Below are positions 4,468-28,781 of a stretch of DNA of 64,000 bases, piece after piece. The DNA is taken from the NCBI RefSeq assembly GCF_011326755.1, contig NZ_JAAOIE010000004.1:124001-188000 (forward strand), given 5' to 3'. This DNA comes from Cochlodiniinecator piscidefendens (GTDB lineage: Bacteria > Pseudomonadota > Alphaproteobacteria > Rhodobacterales > Rhodobacteraceae). A program made the position numbers and the translations under genes. How positions within the stretch are numbered: position 1 is the first letter of the stretch; the number at the start of each line of letters is the position of its first letter. The notes beneath the pieces are model-generated. The model worked only from the letters and a program-made list of their open reading frames with translations, did not search any database and was not told where the DNA came from.

Positions 4468-7400
4468 TCAAGGTTGCTCGGCACGTCGTAACGCGCTTAT
4501 CACAGCGGCGTGAGGTAGAGGCATAAGCGAAGCTGTTTTGGTCCACAAAATGGCGGTTTCAATTGGGCGATCAGGGTAAATCCTTGAAAGCGCAGAAGAA
4601 TAGGCGCCCATTTGCCGCAAAACACCTTCGGGAACTTGGTCAGCTACCTTAGGAACGATAGCATTTGATTTAAAATCGACAGCTAAAATGCGACTAGGTT
4701 CTATTATTAATCTGTCGATTGCCCCCACGATTTGTGATCCATTTAGCTCTGGCAGTGCGGCTGTAATATCAACTTCGGCCAATGTTGTTTCTGCAAACAG
4801 AAATTTCAGATGTGCAGCCTGTAGGACGTTTTGCGCTTCGTGCAGAAGTGCATCAACTTCAGTTTGTGCGATAACGTCATCGTCTTCGGTCAATAAATCT
4901 TGGGCAAAGACAGGCCAAGACGCGGGTGGGTAGGACGGAAGATGTTCCAGAAGCCTGTGCAGTCGGGTTCCGCGCATCATTGCGGCCTCTTCGTCTAATC
5001 CTGAATCGCCAGAGAGTGCTTTCGCGCCGCCTAATCCCGAAGGCGTACGCGGTTTTTCGATCTCAACAGGGGCAGGGGCTTTGGTTCGCAACCAATCTGG
5101 CGTTGCAATTTTTTCTACTTTTTCAGGTGCGGTATCGCCTTCGATGGTTGCGGCCCAATCTCCGGTTTCGAACCGGGTTCCAACACCTCCCGCAAGCGGG
5201 TGTTCCTGCGCGCCTGCGCGCTCTAAACCCCGTGCGACTGTGTCGTACCAACTTGCGCCATCGCTGCCTAACTCACCAGCCGCAGCCACAATGAGCCACT
5301 TCTCAGCGCGTGTCATAGCCACATAAAGCAGGCGATCGCGCTCTTTCTCTTGCTGATCTTGCAGTTTCGCGTGGGCTAAGGCGACGGTTTGCGGACGTTC
5401 GTCTGAGGGGGCTTTCCAAATGACGCCGTTCTCAGTTGGGTATAATTCATCTTTGATGGTCACAAGGCGCCGCGCTGTGTCGGGCATAATCACGATTGGG
5501 GCTTCTAACCCTTTTGATCCATGCACCGTCATCACGCGCACCCGGTCGCTCGCGCTGTCCATTTGACGTTTGATTTCAACGTCGCCACTTTGCAGCCAGG
5601 TTAAAAAACCGGTTAAGCTGGGAACATCGTTGCGTTCGTAAACCAATGCCTGGTTCAAAAGCGCGTCGATCCCATCTTGGGCTTCGGTCCCCAAACGGGC
5701 AAGCAAATTGCGCCGCCCATCATGGCGGGTTAAAATGCGTTCAATCAGATCAAAGGGACGTAGAAAATCTGCATCTTTGCGGAGCGATTGAAGGACAGCA
5801 ATCGTCGCATCATATCGGGGATCACTGCGCAGGGCTTCCCACAGATAAACACCCTTTTTACGCGGTTGGGCCGAGGCATGCAGCATTTGCTGTGACCAGC
5901 CAAACAAAGGCGAACGCAACGCAGCTGCCAGTGAAAGATCGTCTTCGGGTGTTGCGAGAAACGATAGTAGGGCTGCGATGTCTTTAACCGCAAGTTCGCC
6001 GCCGATTTTCAATCTGTCCGCGCCGGCGATTGGGACGCCTTCTGCTTTGCAGGCTCGAATAATTTCGTGAAACAATTCTGACCGACGCTGAACGAGTATC
6101 AGAATATCGCCCGCGCGTACCCGGCGCATTTTATAAGAGCCGCTATGACCTATCTCTTCGGGGAGGGCGGCGTTGGTGATCATGTCGCGAATTTGCCGCG
6201 CAATGCGTTGCGCCAGAATCACCGTGTGGTGGTTTTCAGCGACCAAATCTATCGGATCAAACCAATCGCGGTCTTCGTCTGTCTCGGTTTTGGGCACGGC
6301 TGGCCACAGATCAACGCGTCCGGGCATGTCGTTTTTAAATGCAATGTGTTTGGTTTCGCCGCCCAATCCATTCTCGGGCTGAGTTTCAAAGGTGGTATCA
6401 ACCAATCCCAAAATGGGGCTGGCAGATCGAAATGAATACTGAAGCTCCATAGGCTGGAACGGCAGATTGACCTGTTCCAATTTCCCCTGAAAGTGGGATT
6501 TCATGCGGTCAAAACCATCAGGATCAGCACCCTGAAAGGAATAGATCGATTGCTTTTTGTCCCCGACCACAAAGATTGACCTCTGGGCACCCGAACGCGC
6601 GCCTTCACCGGATGTGAATTCTTGTGCGAGGCGTTCAATCACGTTCCATTGTGCGGGACTGGTGTCTTGGGCTTCGTCAACCAATATGTGATCAATACCG
6701 CCATCCAGCCGGAACAATACCCATTGCGCCACCAGTGGATCGTTCAAAAGGTCGCGCGCTTTTAGAATGAGATCGTCAAAATCAAGCCAACCATTTGCCT
6801 GTTTACGCGTCGCGTAGGCAGGTAGAAAATGCGCGGCGAATTGATACAAAATTAGACACTTTTCCGCAGAATAGAGACTAATTCGTTTCTCACGTGCCGT
6901 TTCAACGCGCCCCATTAAATCGTTTAGTTTTGGCTCTAATGGACCCAATGCTGCGCGCGTTGCTTTGGTGGGAAAGTTGCCTATTTTTGCTGCATATGGC
7001 CCCGCTTTGGCCGTGGCACCGTATAAGAATAATCCTTCAAGCGCTTTTAGATCGCTCACCCCTAGGTTTTCGATATCTAGGGCGTTTAGCTTTGCGGCTG
7101 CGGTGGCATCCGTTTTGCTGCCTGACTGTAAAATTGGAATGATGTCGCGCAGTAAATGGCCTTCGGAACCTAAAAACACCGATGCATGCAGATCGCTTTT
7201 GCCAAATCCCGGCGTTAGCCCGAATTGGGACCAAAGCTCTTCGGCTGTTACTGCGTTTCCTAAGGCATCTTTGTGTTTAACCAACTCTGCCGTGAGACGG
7301 CTGAAGTCTTCGCCAGAATAGACCTGCGCGATGGCGTCGATAATCCCTACCGTATCAGGGTTGTCTGCCAGCGTTTCGATGATTTCTTCGCGCAAAAGAA

Positions 7401-19389: not shown

Positions 19390-19644
19390 AAATCCCAAAA
19401 ATAGGGTTGCCAAGCGTATCATAGACCATAAAGCTGAGTAACGCGATCACCGCGCACAGGTTGTCGATAGCGGCCCTGCGCGCTTTAGCGCAGCCAAATG
19501 TCCTGACAATGTTGACGGAACGATCCCACTGCGTTTGGAAATAGTGGTCGCAGTCAGCCCGTCTTGCCCGACGTTGACCAGCATCCGGTAGATTGCCAAG
19601 CGCGAGGTTTGTGCACGGGCAGAGAAGGCTTCGATTGTAGCATC
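19390..19644 (-). pseudogene. arsR: ArsR-family repressor remnant
   Basis: Reading leftward from 19644, the frame encodes the ArsR winged-helix core: AFSARAQTSRLAIYRMLV, then a GLTATTISKRSGI.PSTLSGHLAALKRAG recognition region. The frame meets TGA at 19447-19449; the continuation (RYSALWS-like) appears in a shifted frame to about 19390. There is no in-frame start codon: the codon before the first residues is TAG. Both lesions indicate a dead gene. It lies just upstream of, and divergent from, the arsenic operon whose regulator it presumably was. Confidence 0.65.
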
Positions 19645-19724: not shown

Positions 19725-20215
19725 ATGATTCGCGAAATATCAAATCTGGTGCTCCTGTTGAAAACAAAACTTATCTCATCCGAAGTGGATTTCGACGCCA
19801 TTGGCAAACACGCAGGCTACTTGTGCGTCCCGCATTCTGTGCATTGCTCGGCCTATGGTTGGATACCTGTGCCGGTCGTATCGATCAGAAATGCCAGCGG
19901 TCCGATGCTGGTGATCATGGCGGGAAATCACGGCGATGAATATGAGGGGCAGATTGCAGAGTCTAACCTTGCGCGTGAATTGGAGGCCCGAGATATTCGC
20001 GGGCGGTTGATCTTTTTACCAACTGTAAATGCACTAGCAGCGCAAACCGGTTTACGCACTTCGTCAGTTGATGATGGCAACCTCAACCGGCTGTTTCCCG
20101 GCAATGCAATGGGTAGCCCTAGCGAAATGATTGCCATTTTATCGAGGCCATCTTGATGCCGCTGGCTGACTATTCGACTGATCTACATTCTGGCAGGCGG
20201 TCTCATGTCCACTGA
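19725..20215 (+). pseudogene. DoeB/AstE-type deacylase (aspartoacylase family), frameshifted and truncated
   Basis: The first frame (19725-20156) gives the N-terminal half of a zinc deacylase of the succinylglutamate desuccinylase/aspartoacylase family, with the metal motif GNHGDEYEG and the DDGNLNRLFPG motif. Near 20134 a one-base loss shifts the frame; the next frame then reads HFIEAILMPLADYSTDLHSG, which contains the second expected metal histidine, until a TGA at 20213. The remaining ~150 residues of the family are absent. It most resembles N-acetyl-diaminobutyrate deacetylase (DoeB) of ectoine breakdown. Confidence 0.7.
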
Positions 20216-20423
20216 CAACGAAACCCGTCCTTCAATGAGACTTGTATACAAGCGCTTTAAGTTCGTCTGCGAGCCGGGGTCAGTTGCAGGGCTTGCTGCG
20301 ATTCTGAATCGTAAGATCGAAACCAAAGGGCTGCAACGTCGACAGAAGTCGCTTTGCTAATTTGTTGGGCGACAAAACATGACACTGAATAATTTCTGTA
20401 AGAAAACTGCAAAAGGCAAACTT

Positions 20424-21476
20424 ATGACGGACGCTAATACACCCTCTGATGAAAAACTCGGCACTTTTGAACGCCTCCTGACCGTCTGGGTCGCCCTTGC
20501 GATGATTGGCGGGATTGCAATCGGTGCGTTCGCGCCGGATGTGGTCAATGCAGTGGCATCGGCGGAAATAGCGTCGATCAATTTGGTGGTCGCGGTCCTG
20601 ATTTGGGCGATGGTCTATCCGATGATGGTTGGCGTGGACCTCGGAGCGGTTGCGGGTGTGGCCCGTCAACCCAAAGGGCTGTTGGTAACCTTAACGGTAA
20701 ACTGGTTGATCAAGCCGTTCACGATGGCGTTTCTAGCTGTGTTGTTCTTTGATTACGTGTTTGCCCCGTTCATCGAACCGGAAGACGCTTCGCAATACAT
20801 CGCTGGGCTTATCCTGCTCGGCGCAGCGCCCTGCACAGCGATGGTGTTCGTATGGTCACAACTGACACGAGGGGATGCTACCTATACGCTGGTGCAGGTC
20901 TCTGTGAACGACTTGATCATGATCGTGGCATTTGCGCCGATCGTTGCGTTCTTGTTAGGTGTAACTGACATTGTGGTGCCGTGGGAAACACTTGTTTTGG
21001 CGACCATTCTTTATGTGGTATTGCCTTTGGTCGCAGGGTTGATCACCCGCCGCGTTCTGGGGTCGGAACAAGCTATCGAAGCATTCACGGCTAAGGTGAA
21101 GCCATGGTCCATCATCGGTCTGATCGCGACAGTCGTGATCCTGTTTGGTTTGCAAGGCGAAGTGATCCTTAATCGACCCCTCGTGATCGCCCTAATTGCG
21201 GTGCCGATAATAATTCAAAGCTATGGAATTTTCGCCATCGCTTATGGTGCGGCCTATGCTCTGAAAGTTCCGCATCGTGTTGCGGCCCCATGTGCAATGA
21301 TTGGTTCGTCAAACTTCTTTGAGCTCGCCGTCGCGGTGGCCATCAGCCTGTTCGGACTTCATTCTGGCGCGGCACTGGCGACGGTTGTTGGGGTGCTGGT
21401 TGAGGTGCCTGTAATGCTATCGTTGGTTGCCTTTGCCAACCGCACCCGCAATCGTTTTCCAGAGACTGCGTTATGA
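20424..21476 (+). CDS. acr3: ACR3-family arsenite efflux permease
   Basis: 350 residues from the ATG at 20424; an upstream in-frame ATG at 20379 adds 15 unconvincing residues. Ten membrane helices are expected. The helix with the essential cysteine is [15 protein letters not shown], and the [14 protein letters not shown] motif of the family is near residue 300. It exports As(III), and sometimes Sb(III), using the proton motive force. It is first in the arsenic operon; its stop codon overlaps the start of the ArsC fusion gene by four bases. Confidence 0.95.
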
Positions 21477-23080
21477 TCATTATCTACCATAACCCCGAAT
21501 GCGGTACTTCGCGCAATGTTGTGGATACTGTTCGCAAATCCGGTGACAGTTTTGACGTAGTGGAATACTTGACCGAGGGCTGGACTAGACATCAGCTAAA
21601 CACATTGTTTGCGGCGGCGAACCTGACGCCGCGAATGGCGCTTCGCAAGACCAAGTCTCCGGCGTTGGAAATGGGGCTTCTGGAAGACGGGGTCAACGAC
21701 GAGACAATCCTCAATACGATGCTGGAACATCCAGTTTTGGTGAACAGACCTATCGTTGTTTCGCCCAAGGGCGTACGGCTTTGCCGTCCTTCTGAGACCG
21801 TTCTAGAATTGTTGAATCAGTGGCCATCTGGTCCTTTGTACAAAGAAGACGGCGAGATGGTCCTGGACGATAAGGGGAAGCCAGCTAAATTGGACAGCTT
21901 CGATTTCGATAAGGAAATAGATCGGCGTGCGGTGCCTGCGCTAAAGGTCCATCCGATGGTGTTGGGTCACGATGGGACTGAGTTGTTCCCCGCCGGTGTT
22001 GCGGATATGGATTTTCCAGCGCCTCCCGCCGTGACGGAGGCTTTGGCAAACCGCGTCGCCCACGGCATTTTCGGCTATGAAGCAGTGCCGGATGGCCTGA
22101 TATCCACCTTGGTCGCTTGGCAAAAAAACCGGCATGGTTGGACGGTTGATCCTGATCACATTTTGCGTGCACCCAATGTGTTGAACAGCCTGTCGATGGC
22201 GCTGAACCTGTTCACAGATGTCGGTGATGGCATCATCGTGCAACCCCCGGTGTTTTTTGATTTTGCAGACATTATTGCCGAGAATGGCCGTCGTATGGTG
22301 CGTAATCCGCTGATCCTGCGTGAAGGACGTTATGAGATGGATTTTGACGGGCTGGAGATCATCGCCGCTGATCCATCGGTTAAAATGATGTTCCTGTGTA
22401 ATCCGCATAATCCTGTAGGGCGGGTCTGGGCCAAGTCGACTCTAGCGCAGATCGGAGAAATTTGCCGCGCCCATAACGTTCTGGTGGTGTCCGATGAAAT
22501 CCATGGAGACATCACTTTTACCGGCCACCGATACACACCCTTTGCCTCAATTTCCGAAGCTGACGCGCTCAATTGTATCAGCTGCCTGTCGCCCGCCAAA
22601 GCATTCAACATCGCGGCGTGTTGTTCGTCGTTTACCGTAATAGCAGACCCCAAACGCCGTGACGCATTCAAGGCTGAAAACAGCCGCCTGACCGTGAACA
22701 AGAACAACGCCTTTGCCAGCGCGGCAATGGAGGCAGCATATGACAGAGGCGCGCCTTGGCTTGATGCCGCGACTGACTACATCGAAGGTAACCTTGCACT
22801 GGTGCGCGTGCGGTTGGACACTGTTCCCGAAGTAACCTTGATCGAGCCCGAGGGCACGTTTCTGCTGTGGCTGGACTTTCGAGAACTGGGGTTTGCACCC
22901 AAAGATTTGACCCAGTTTCTGCGCCGGAAAGCTGGGTGGGCGATCACCCGTGGTGCTGCCTTTGACGAAGGCGGCGCAGGGTTTGGGCGATTGAACATTG
23001 CCTGCACGCGTGCGCGGCTCGACGCAGCACTGAATGCCCTAATCAATGCAATTTCTGAACATCGAAAGATACGAACATGA
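21473..23080 (+). CDS. Fusion: ArsC arsenate reductase + MalY/PatB-type C-S lyase/aminotransferase
   Basis: 535 residues in one uninterrupted frame. Residues 1-140 are a complete glutaredoxin-coupled ArsC: catalytic C10 in HNPECGTSR with R58, R92 and R105 matching E. coli C12, R60, R94 and R107 at a constant offset of two. From about residue 143 follows a complete PLP enzyme of the MalY/PatB class: [29 protein letters not shown] (N310), VVSDEIHGD (D341), the Schiff-base lysine K376 in SPAKAFNIA, and a C-terminal [11 protein letters not shown] arginine motif. PatB-type enzymes cleave cysteine and cystathionine C-S bonds. The operon setting (acr3 before, arsH after, four-base overlaps on both sides) ties both activities to arsenic handling. 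Confidence 0.92.
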
Positions 23081-23793
23081 CCGATACACCGCACCTCAAA
23101 GATGCCCATCTTCGCACTATTGACGAAAACCGTCTGTTCGCTGCCGAGCAACCGACCCATCCCCCACGCATCTTGTTGCTGTATGGTTCATTGCGCAAGC
23201 GGTCCTTCAGCCGTCTGATGACCGAAGAAGCAGCGCGCGTGTTGACCCGAATGGGTGCTGAAACAAAAACCTTCAACCCAAGCGGGCTGCCATTACCCGA
23301 TGATGAGGATGCTTCACATGCCAAAGTGCAGGAATTGCGCGATCTGGTCAGTTGGAGCGAAGGTATGGTTTGGTGTTCACCAGAGCGTCACGGGTCGATG
23401 ACCGGTATTATGAAATCCCAAATCGACTGGATACCACTGTCGATGGGGGCCGTGCGCCCAACGCAAGGCAAGACGCTGGCCGTAATGCAGGTCAACGGTG
23501 GATCGCAGAGCTTCAACGCTGTTAATCAACTACGTATATTAGGTCGGTGGATGCGGCTGTTGACGATCCCGAACCAATCTTCTACCGCCAAGGCGTTTCT
23601 TGAGTTTGACGACTACGACCGGATGAAACCGTCGCCATATTATGATCGGATGGTGGACGTAATGGAAGAGCTGATGAAGTTCACGATGCTAACACGGGGA
23701 CGGTCCGATTATCTGGTGGATCGTTATAGCGAGCGTAAAGAAACGGGTGAAGCTTTGATAGAGCGGGTCAATCTACAACGGGCCCAGACTTAG
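23077..23793 (+). CDS. arsH: ArsH, NADPH-dependent FMN reductase for organoarsenicals
   Basis: 238 residues. The flavodoxin-like fold has the FMN phosphate loop [13 protein letters not shown] near residue 35, and the [22 protein letters not shown] region is characteristic of ArsH. ArsH oxidises trivalent methylated and aromatic arsenicals and reduces quinones. It overlaps the ArsC fusion gene by ATGA and is the last gene of the operon. Confidence 0.95.
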
Positions 23794-27389: not shown

Positions 27390-28781
27390 ATGGCAACGGA
27401 TTACATCGTTAAAGACATCTCTTTGGCCGAATATGGCCGCAAAGAACTGGATATTGCTGAAACCGAAATGCCGGGCCTTATGGCTTTGCGCACGGAATAT
27501 GGCGATAGCAAACCGCTAAAAGGGTCACGCATTGTTGGCTCTTTGCATATGACCATTCAGACGGCTGTTCTGATTGAAACGCTGGTTGCGCTGGGTGCAG
27601 ACGTGCGTTGGGCATCTTGCAACATCTTTTCAACCCAAGACCACGCAGCCGCAGCGATTGCAGCAGGTGGTACACCGGTTTTCGCAATCAAAGGTCAATC
27701 GCTCGAAGAGCATTGGGATTACTTGGATAAATCCTTTATGTTCCCTGAAGGCCCGAACTTGATTTTGGACGATGGCGGCGATGCGACGCTTTATATCCTT
27801 TTGGGTGCGCGTGTTGAGAACGGCGAAACTGGCCTGATCGAAACACCGACATCTGAAGAAGAAGTTGCAGTGTTTGCGCAGATCAAAAAGCGTATGGAAG
27901 CCAGCCCGGGTTGGTTCACCAAAATGCGCGCACAGATCCAAGGTGTTTCAGAAGAAACCACAACAGGCGTGCACCGTCTGTATGAATTGGTGAAAAACGG
28001 CCAGCTGCCGTTCCCTGCGATCAACGTGAATGATTCTGTCACCAAGTCGAAATTCGACAACAAATACGGCTGTAAAGAATCGCTTGTTGATGGCATCCGT
28101 CGTGCGACTGACACCATGATGGCCGGTAAAGTTGCGGTTGTGTGTGGGTATGGCGACGTTGGCAAAGGTTCTGCTGCATCTTTGGCCGGTGCAGGTGCCC
28201 GCGTGAAAGTCACCGAAATCGACCCAATCTGTGCGCTTCAGGCAGCTATGGACGGTTTTGAGGTTGTGACCTTGGAAGATGCTGTTTCAACGGCTGACCT
28301 GTTTGTCACCACCACCGGCAACAAAGATGTTATTCGTATCGAGCATATGCGCGAAATGAAGGACATGGCGATTGTTGGTAACATTGGTCACTTTGACAAT
28401 GAAATTCAGGTCGCAAGCCTGAAAAACCACAAATGGACCAACATCAAAGACCAGGTTGATATGATCGAAATGCCATCCGGCAGCCGTATCATTCTGTTGT
28501 CTGAAGGACGTTTGTTGAACCTCGGTAACGCAACAGGTCACCCATCATTTGTGATGTCTGCCTCCTTTACCAACCAAGTTTTGGCGCAGATCGAACTGTG
28601 GACCAAAGGCGACGAGTACAACAACGACGTTTACATCCTACCTAAGCATTTGGATGAAAAAGTTGCGCGTCTGCATTTGGATCGTATCGGTGTGAAATTG
28701 TCTACGCTCAGCACAGAACAAGCGAGCTATATCGGTGTGACACCCGAAGGCCCGTTCAAGCCTGAGCACTACCGTTACTAA
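27390..28781 (+). CDS. ahcY: Adenosylhomocysteinase
   Basis: 463 residues. It hydrolyses S-adenosylhomocysteine to adenosine and homocysteine, closing the methyl cycle. The substrate site includes [15 protein letters not shown], the NAD-binding loop is [16 protein letters not shown], and the C-terminus ends in the tetramer-swapping KPEHYRY. An AAGGAG site lies nine bases before the ATG. I looked for an SAH riboswitch in the leader and saw none. A strong terminator follows. Confidence 0.98.

Follow-up and report, generated by a model that had tools for sequence, protein, structure and literature searches.

The arsC–patB fusion and its operon

The window, by which we mean the whole 64,000-nucleotide stretch of roseobacter DNA analysed here, carries a 535-codon frame at 21473–23080 whose translation contains no internal stop and which joins an arsenate reductase (ArsC) to a PLP enzyme. 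The frame overlaps the acr3 gene (end 21476) and the arsH gene (start 23077) by four bases each. The single open frame and the two overlaps had been described in the original prediction, with which the translation and the coordinates of the open reading frames agree. The intact features of the locus are the following:

20379–21476, forward strand: acr3 arsenite permease gene (TIGR00832, 386.5 bits, above cut-off)
21473–21886, forward strand: ArsC half of the fusion, residues 1–138, with C10, R58, R92 and R105
21893–23077, forward strand: PatB half of the fusion, residues 141–535, with K376 (PLP lysine), D341 and R506 and the clade-specific F261, C383, C384 and W489
22619–22624, forward strand: Cys383-Cys384 codons (computed from the start of the open reading frame), 7 and 8 residues past the PLP lysine
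23077–23793, forward strand: arsH gene, organoarsenical-oxidase-type flavoprotein (TIGR02690, 401.8 bits, above cut-off)

Co-directional, overlapping genes for an As(III) permease, an arsenate reductase and ArsH identify this as an ars operon, and the complete fusion lies inside it with acr3 and arsH flanking in overlap, as had been claimed. The operon has no intact ArsR gene of its own, the local one being decayed. Translation of acr3 may in fact begin at the ATG at 20424, since the Acr3 match from L043 (L numbers denote related loci) begins at residue 16. A scan of promoters and terminators gave counts no different from shuffled sequence. An S-adenosylhomocysteine hydrolase gene at 27390–28781 on the forward strand, about 3.6 kb past arsH, is probably unrelated.

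Both halves were recognized by profile searches. Pfam placed ArsC at residues 5–112 (53.1 bits, cut-off 24) and Aminotran_1_2 at residues 183–523 (116.4 bits, cut-off 19.7), and the NCBIfam model TIGR04350, ‘PatB family C-S lyase’, matched residues 145–527 with 401 bits, above its cut-off of 340, in a protein from which the canonical active-site Tyr and Trp are absent. The ArsC half passed the cut-off of PF03960, and its 94.6 bits with TIGR00014 (arsC) were 11 short of the equivalog cut-off of 106.05; the nearest separate ArsC, that of L017, scored 112.7 bits with the same model. Using phmmer, residues 2–138 were matched to R773-type ArsC structures (1.2e-35) and residues 144–524 to B. subtilis PatB 6qp3 (2.1e-100). 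The complete glutaredoxin-type ArsC and the complete PLP enzyme of the original prediction were borne out residue by residue, with C10, R58, R92 and R105 in the former and N310, D341 and K376 in the latter found as numbered. The catalytic Cys and three Arg of R773 ArsC are presumably C12, R60, R94 and R107, and the ArsC half is predicted to reduce arsenate to As(III). There is almost no linker, as ArsC aligned to residue 136–138 and PatB from 144, with related PatB rows starting at 141. The full-length model of the fusion was poor (pLDDT 58.6), and the PatB half modelled alone gave a confident fold (pLDDT 90.8, pTM 0.91).

In each half, third codon positions carried most of the substitutions relative to separate relatives, with divergences by codon position of 0.29/0.16/0.63 for the ArsC half against L017 and 0.18/0.16/0.60 for the PatB half against L016. 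This bias, together with the four-base overlaps on both sides, the intact frame and the location of the locus inside its contig, at 145 kb of C16, argues against an assembly or sequencing artefact, which we regard as extremely improbable even though the genus was represented by one genome in the comparison. The fusion is confirmed as a real, intact gene joining ArsC to a complete PatB-type PLP enzyme.

Fused forms of ArsC have been described before, and the available text of PMC6205960 lists Acr3-ArsC of M. tuberculosis, AqpS-ArsC of Salinispora tropica, ArsR-ArsC, and ArsN fused with ArsC or ArsD. As in those proteins, ArsC shares its chain with another arsenic-operon product, but where their partners in that text are a permease, a channel, a repressor or ArsN, the partner in the window is a PLP lyase. 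The fused ArsC is not the only candidate arsenate reductase of the genome, because a second, separate ArsC (133.6 bits) is encoded on contig C4; one low-molecular-weight-phosphatase-type protein is encoded on C15. Searches for acr3 (E 0.001) and arsH (E 1e-60) each returned one match in the genome.

The clade of the lyase half

The PatB halves of the 80 best relatives and of three added plasmid loci were 60–74% identical to that of the window. In the tree, 84 sequences grouped in a single clade (support 100/100) that excluded 13 canonical PatBs, a set of 11 proteins encoded on plasmids together with 6qp3 and 4dgt; the canonical PatB of the window's own genome, encoded on C17 and 33% identical to the fused PatB, stood outside this set. 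We refer to the clade as CC-PatB, a name given in this analysis.

The whole fold is that of the PatB/MalY C-S beta-lyases. The best structural matches of the modelled PatB half were PatB-type and related C-S lyases, with Z scores of 55.3 to 4dgt (the highest) and 54.6 to B. subtilis PatB 6qp3, and a range of 47.9–55.3 at an rmsd of 1.3–1.6 over 6qp3, 4dgt/4dq6, T. denticola cystalysin 1c7n and E. coli MalY 1d2f. The PLP lysine, the Asp and the C-terminal Arg are common to these enzymes and the fused lyase, and K376, D341 and R506 were conserved in 84/84 clade rows and 13/13 canonical rows.

In contrast, the clade departs from the canonical proteins at a defined set of positions. Position 175 was Gly in 83/84 clade members and Trp in 12 of the 13 canonical proteins, while position 261 was Phe in all 84 and Tyr in all 13; we take both the Trp and the Tyr to be active-site residues of canonical PatB, and the lost Tyr is presumably the catalytic one of cystalysin and MalY. 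Cys was found at position 383 in 83/84 members and at position 384 in 79/84, and at neither position in any canonical row, where Leu-Gln mostly stands instead. Position +8 after the PLP lysine binds the PLP phosphate in related aminotransferases. Pro or His is replaced by Asp263 and Val, Ile or Leu by Trp489, and an invariant loop, SxLTVNKN, occupies residues 404–411. All or nearly all of the 84 have G175, F261, D263, C383, W489 and this loop, features that are lacking or rare among the 13, and E203, R232, N235 and F262 are also clade-specific. The original prediction had described the lyase as of the MalY/PatB type; as judged by the alignment and the tree, it is no ordinary member but part of a distinct PatB clade with a remodelled substrate site.

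The Cys383-Cys384 pair was considered as a signature of arsenic operons and rejected, because it also occurs in members without ars genes, and because L011, L028 and L030 have ars genes yet Ser at 384. Since the pair occurs with and without ars genes, the clade members probably share one reaction. An in-frame stop was seen in the CC-PatB of Phaeobacter marinintestinus (L058, PatB at 6001–7167) and in that of genome G213.

These differences bear on a first alternative, according to which the lyase would free H2S or a thiol from cysteine-type amino acids, and the sulfur would either combine with ArsC-made As(III) into thioarsenicals or supply a reducing thiol. The presence of ArsC in the same chain, the structural matches to C-S lyases and their relatives, and the passing of the cut-off of TIGR04350, a model that names C-S lyases, all accord with it. 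However, the window's genome and 12/12 sampled carrier genomes already have a canonical PatB, and simple cysteine cleavage would thus not call for a new active site; the clade also differs at positions where the 13 canonical proteins show little or no variation. We therefore consider a sulfide or thiol generator unlikely.

Gene neighbourhoods and the origin of the fusion

Relatives numbered 126 in the genome_contigs collection; the best 80 were retained, and three plasmid loci were added to these. No ArsC-PatB fusion was found among the best 80 of the 126, nor in 394 family, 385 class and 398 phylum genomes (overlapping samples), and no phage record covered 80% of the fusion query. Two plasmid records (H4 and H6) covered at least 80% of it. 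H4 (L125) was rejected as a fusion because its PatB gene follows a separate transporter gene, and the match of H6 begins at query residue 78. Neighbourhoods were counted at 83 loci (L009–L091, with L001–L008 and L092–L102 left out), a set that retains near-copies such as L053/L054, L023/L090 and L009/L012 and in which the marker identity limits were our own choice. A separate arsC was present at three of them. L017 and L026 have the order PatB-ArsC-ArsH, and their ArsC proteins share 68% and 60% identity with the fused one; L081 has the order ArsC-ArsH-ThrD-aquaporin-PatB, and its ArsC shares 59%. The original prediction had named two things that would count against it, one being resequencing that reveals a stop codon or frameshift between the halves, the other being homologous operons that always keep the two separate, with a fusion unique to this assembly. 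The latter applies by half: in all other cases examined the two genes are separate or arsC is missing, and a single genome, the only one of its genus in the comparison, carries the fusion. As an event the fusion appears to be private to this genome, and the lyase's link to arsenic survives this privacy because it does not rest on the fusion.

A strict ars gene (ArsH, A, D, C, B or Acr3) lay within 7.5 kb of PatB at 44/83 loci and was absent from that distance at 39/83. Counting ArsM, 45/83 loci were ars-associated, and 57/83 when aquaporin or ArsR was counted too. The remaining 26 had no ars marker whatever; 14 of these, some on short contigs, had no marker of any kind, and 12 had only AstE and/or ThrD (AstE as sole marker in nine, AstE with ThrD in two, ThrD alone in one). 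Because lyases from loci without ars genes share the active-site residues, the substrate need not contain arsenic.

The common layout consists of ArsR and, beside it, genes for an AstE-like deacylase, a dehydratase-like (ThrD) or CysM-like PLP enzyme, an aquaporin and PatB, followed by arsH or arsD-arsA. The annotation of the Ruegeria YS9 plasmid gives it as ArsR beside a succinylglutamate desuccinylase/aspartoacylase family protein, threonine/serine dehydratase, aquaporin, MalY/PatB and arsH, and this gene set, when its genes were used as queries, recurred across many loci. In a second common layout arsD-arsA follows PatB, often with the CysM-like enzyme replacing the dehydratase. Among the 57 loci, ArsH (20) and ArsA (22) were mutually exclusive, as were ThrD (29) and the CysM-like fold-II PLP enzyme (13; L059:938–1978, reverse strand, and 12 further loci), and ArsA was present at 13/13 of the latter. 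The arsenite permease or channel beside PatB came from one of three unrelated families, being an aquaporin at 43/83 loci, ArsB at 3/83 and Acr3 at 2/83, never two at one locus; ArsB directly precedes CC-PatB in L029 and L031 and lies downstream on the opposite strand in L047. In a Chloroflexi MAG, an arsenite methyltransferase gene (L046:4945–5814, forward strand; NF008823, 309.7 bits, cut-off 263) precedes the CC-PatB match by 184 bases. In the nearly identical L023 and L090, CC-PatB stands beside a phosphonate-type ABC transporter (phnD, phnC, phnE, phnE) without ars markers.

As described in the available text of PMC6205960, the AqpS-type ars operon of S. meliloti has an aquaporin in place of the permease, as do the 43 loci above; compared with it, the related loci add AstE-like, dehydratase-like and PatB genes, and the window has Acr3.

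As a control, 12 family genomes were used that each carry one canonical and one clade PatB at E 1e-60. Strict ars genes lay near 5/12 clade and 0/12 canonical PatBs (Fisher p = 0.037), a p-value that is too small, since the loci share ancestry and near-copies remained in the set; one control contig was only 4.8 kb long and three more were 10–11.8 kb, and the 12 family loci (L103–L114) overlap the 83. Genome-wide, ArsH was not enriched (4/13 clade carriers vs 105/381 non-carriers). Where it is a separate gene, the lyase is also tied to arsenic genes at the level of the locus, with ars genes at 44/83; at the level of the genome, ArsH is no commoner in carriers.

Upstream of acr3, three decayed genes were found in the window:

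19396–19644, reverse strand: decayed ArsR/SmtB-type repressor gene, with an in-frame stop and a gap
19770–20212, forward strand: decayed AstE/AspA-type deacylase gene, located by tblastn, with a PF24827 AstE_AspA_cat match at window:19725–20153
20187–20376, forward strand: decayed C-terminal piece of a dehydratase-like PLP gene, located by tblastn with ThrD of L024, L011 and L014

The repressor remnant showed 44–49% identity, with the stop and the gap, in tblastn with the ArsR of L016, L010, L024 and L089, and in the whole-genome search it contained one TGA and one TAG. Of the deacylase, residues ~5–126 lie in one frame (64–77% identity) and ~127–152 in another, and the remainder is missing. 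Residues 253–300 of ThrD were clear (to 20330), and residues 309–324, in another frame, were weak (E 0.06). The aquaporin of related loci had no match in the window's genome at E 1e-20. An intact ArsR homologue, 64% identical to that of L016, is encoded on contig C18, not beside ars genes, and the repressor role may have moved to it. At that site (L130:6452–8962) the homologue and a BhcD-like reductase gene are convergent, and the reductase gene follows a BhcC-like aldolase gene.

The sister group of the window's PatB comprised seven PatBs (L009, L010, L012, L013, L014, L016 and L021; support 99/94), and the gene order at each of their loci is AstE, aquaporin, PatB, arsH, with an ArsR gene in view at six, L013 being a short contig. 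The decayed ArsR, AstE and dehydratase genes upstream of acr3 mark the fusion as a derived form of that operon. Judged from these remnants, the window's operon is a descendant of an operon with ArsR beside AstE, dehydratase-like, aquaporin, PatB and ArsH genes. We infer that ArsR, AstE, ThrD and the aquaporin disappeared from the ancestral operon, that it gained acr3 and arsC, which now occupy the place of the lost genes, and that arsC became joined to patB. The original prediction was right in seeing an arsenic operon here; it did not mention the three decayed genes.

A deletion could also have joined arsC to patB by accident, in which case the ArsC half alone would matter and the lyase would be a passenger; the decay of three genes upstream and the restriction of the fusion to one genome would be expected in that case. 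The state of the lyase speaks against it. Its 395-codon frame is open, it keeps K376, D341 and R506, and it retains 134 of 136 nearly invariant clade columns, the two departures falling within the clade range of 0–7. It has been preserved, and joined to arsC, while AstE, ThrD and ArsR decayed around it, and we consider a passenger lyase quite improbable.

Proposed role of the lyase

The original prediction had offered three possible roles for the lyase: releasing sulfide or thiols near the reductase, cleaving a cysteine or glutathione conjugate of arsenic, and acting on an arsenic-containing amino acid. From the neighbourhoods and the altered active site, its most likely function lies in arsenic detoxification, on a substrate that we infer to be an amino acid linked to arsenic or bearing sulfur. 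As a more specific reading, to which we assign a probability of roughly 40%, the fusion joins two parts of one arsenic-detoxification operon and the lyase carries out beta-elimination on an arsenic-carrying amino acid. The ArsC half would convert arsenate to As(III), and the PLP half would act on an arsenic-bearing amino acid, the simplest being a cysteine-type (As-S-Cys) adduct formed by As(III) or an organoarsenical, yielding pyruvate, ammonia and an arsenic species freed of the amino acid. This species would leave via the neighbouring permease or be oxidized by ArsH. The fusion would couple arsenate reduction to the lyase step or hold the two halves at a fixed ratio. In the full operon, preparing or removing related amino acids would fall to the AstE-like deacylase and the second PLP enzyme, both of which could be lost. 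Aspartoacylase-family enzymes can deacetylate mercapturates, and an AstE-like deacylase would therefore pair with a cysteine-conjugate lyase. PLP enzymes can release arsenite from arsonoalanine.

Alternatively, the AstE-like deacylase, the dehydratase-like enzyme and CC-PatB could form a catabolic module that degrades an N-acylated, perhaps sulfur-bearing, amino acid, with the ars genes joined to it by chance or shared mobility. The 12 loci that carry AstE, ThrD or both as their only markers fit such a module, and so do the best NCBIfam matches of its members, although these scores stand well under the equivalog cut-offs: the AstE-like partner was closest to the ectoine enzymes DoeB/EutE (230.9 of 402.7 bits), and the dehydratase-like partner to hydroxyaspartate ammonia-lyase, BhcB and EutB (291.1 of 452 bits). 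That the intact ArsR homologue of this genome has BhcD-like and BhcC-like genes for neighbours, and no ars genes, points the same way, as does the lack of genome-wide enrichment of ArsH. Chance linkage is harder to reconcile with the swapping of permease types beside PatB, the alternation of ArsH with ArsA/D and the arsM gene preceding the lyase in the Chloroflexi MAG; moreover, it was the lyase alone of the module that survived in the window, fused to arsC. We judge a purely catabolic module to be rather unlikely.

Known arsenic enzymes reduce, oxidize, methylate, demethylate, acylate or export arsenic. Extending the arsenic-detoxification reading to the whole clade, a bolder and doubtful but conceivable proposal is that CC-PatB is a PLP-dependent arsenical lyase which, by beta-elimination, frees an amino acid of arsenic bound via sulfur or directly via carbon, and that with the AstE-like deacylase and the fold-II PLP partner it forms an unrecognized route for organic or thiol-bound arsenic, chiefly in Alphaproteobacteria, which ArsC would feed directly in the window. 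If this is true, a dedicated PLP lyase that recurs in ars operons with swapping permeases would tie arsenic detoxification to amino-acid or thiol chemistry through an additional step; if the substrate is without arsenic, the module sets apart a PatB subfamily all the same. Separate and fused forms of the lyase, with and without AstE and ThrD, provide a clear test set. More than the fusion, it is the presence of this lyase clade in arsenic operons that merits further work.

Neither an ArsC-lyase fusion nor a PatB-type enzyme in ars operons was described in the open-licence literature searched, which is weak evidence of absence, and the available portions of PMC9751042, PMC12607644, PMC5360009, PMC6205960, PMC7965956 and PMC5930303 contained nothing on either. 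The available portion of PMC9751042 does report a malY gene beside etf and ldh genes.
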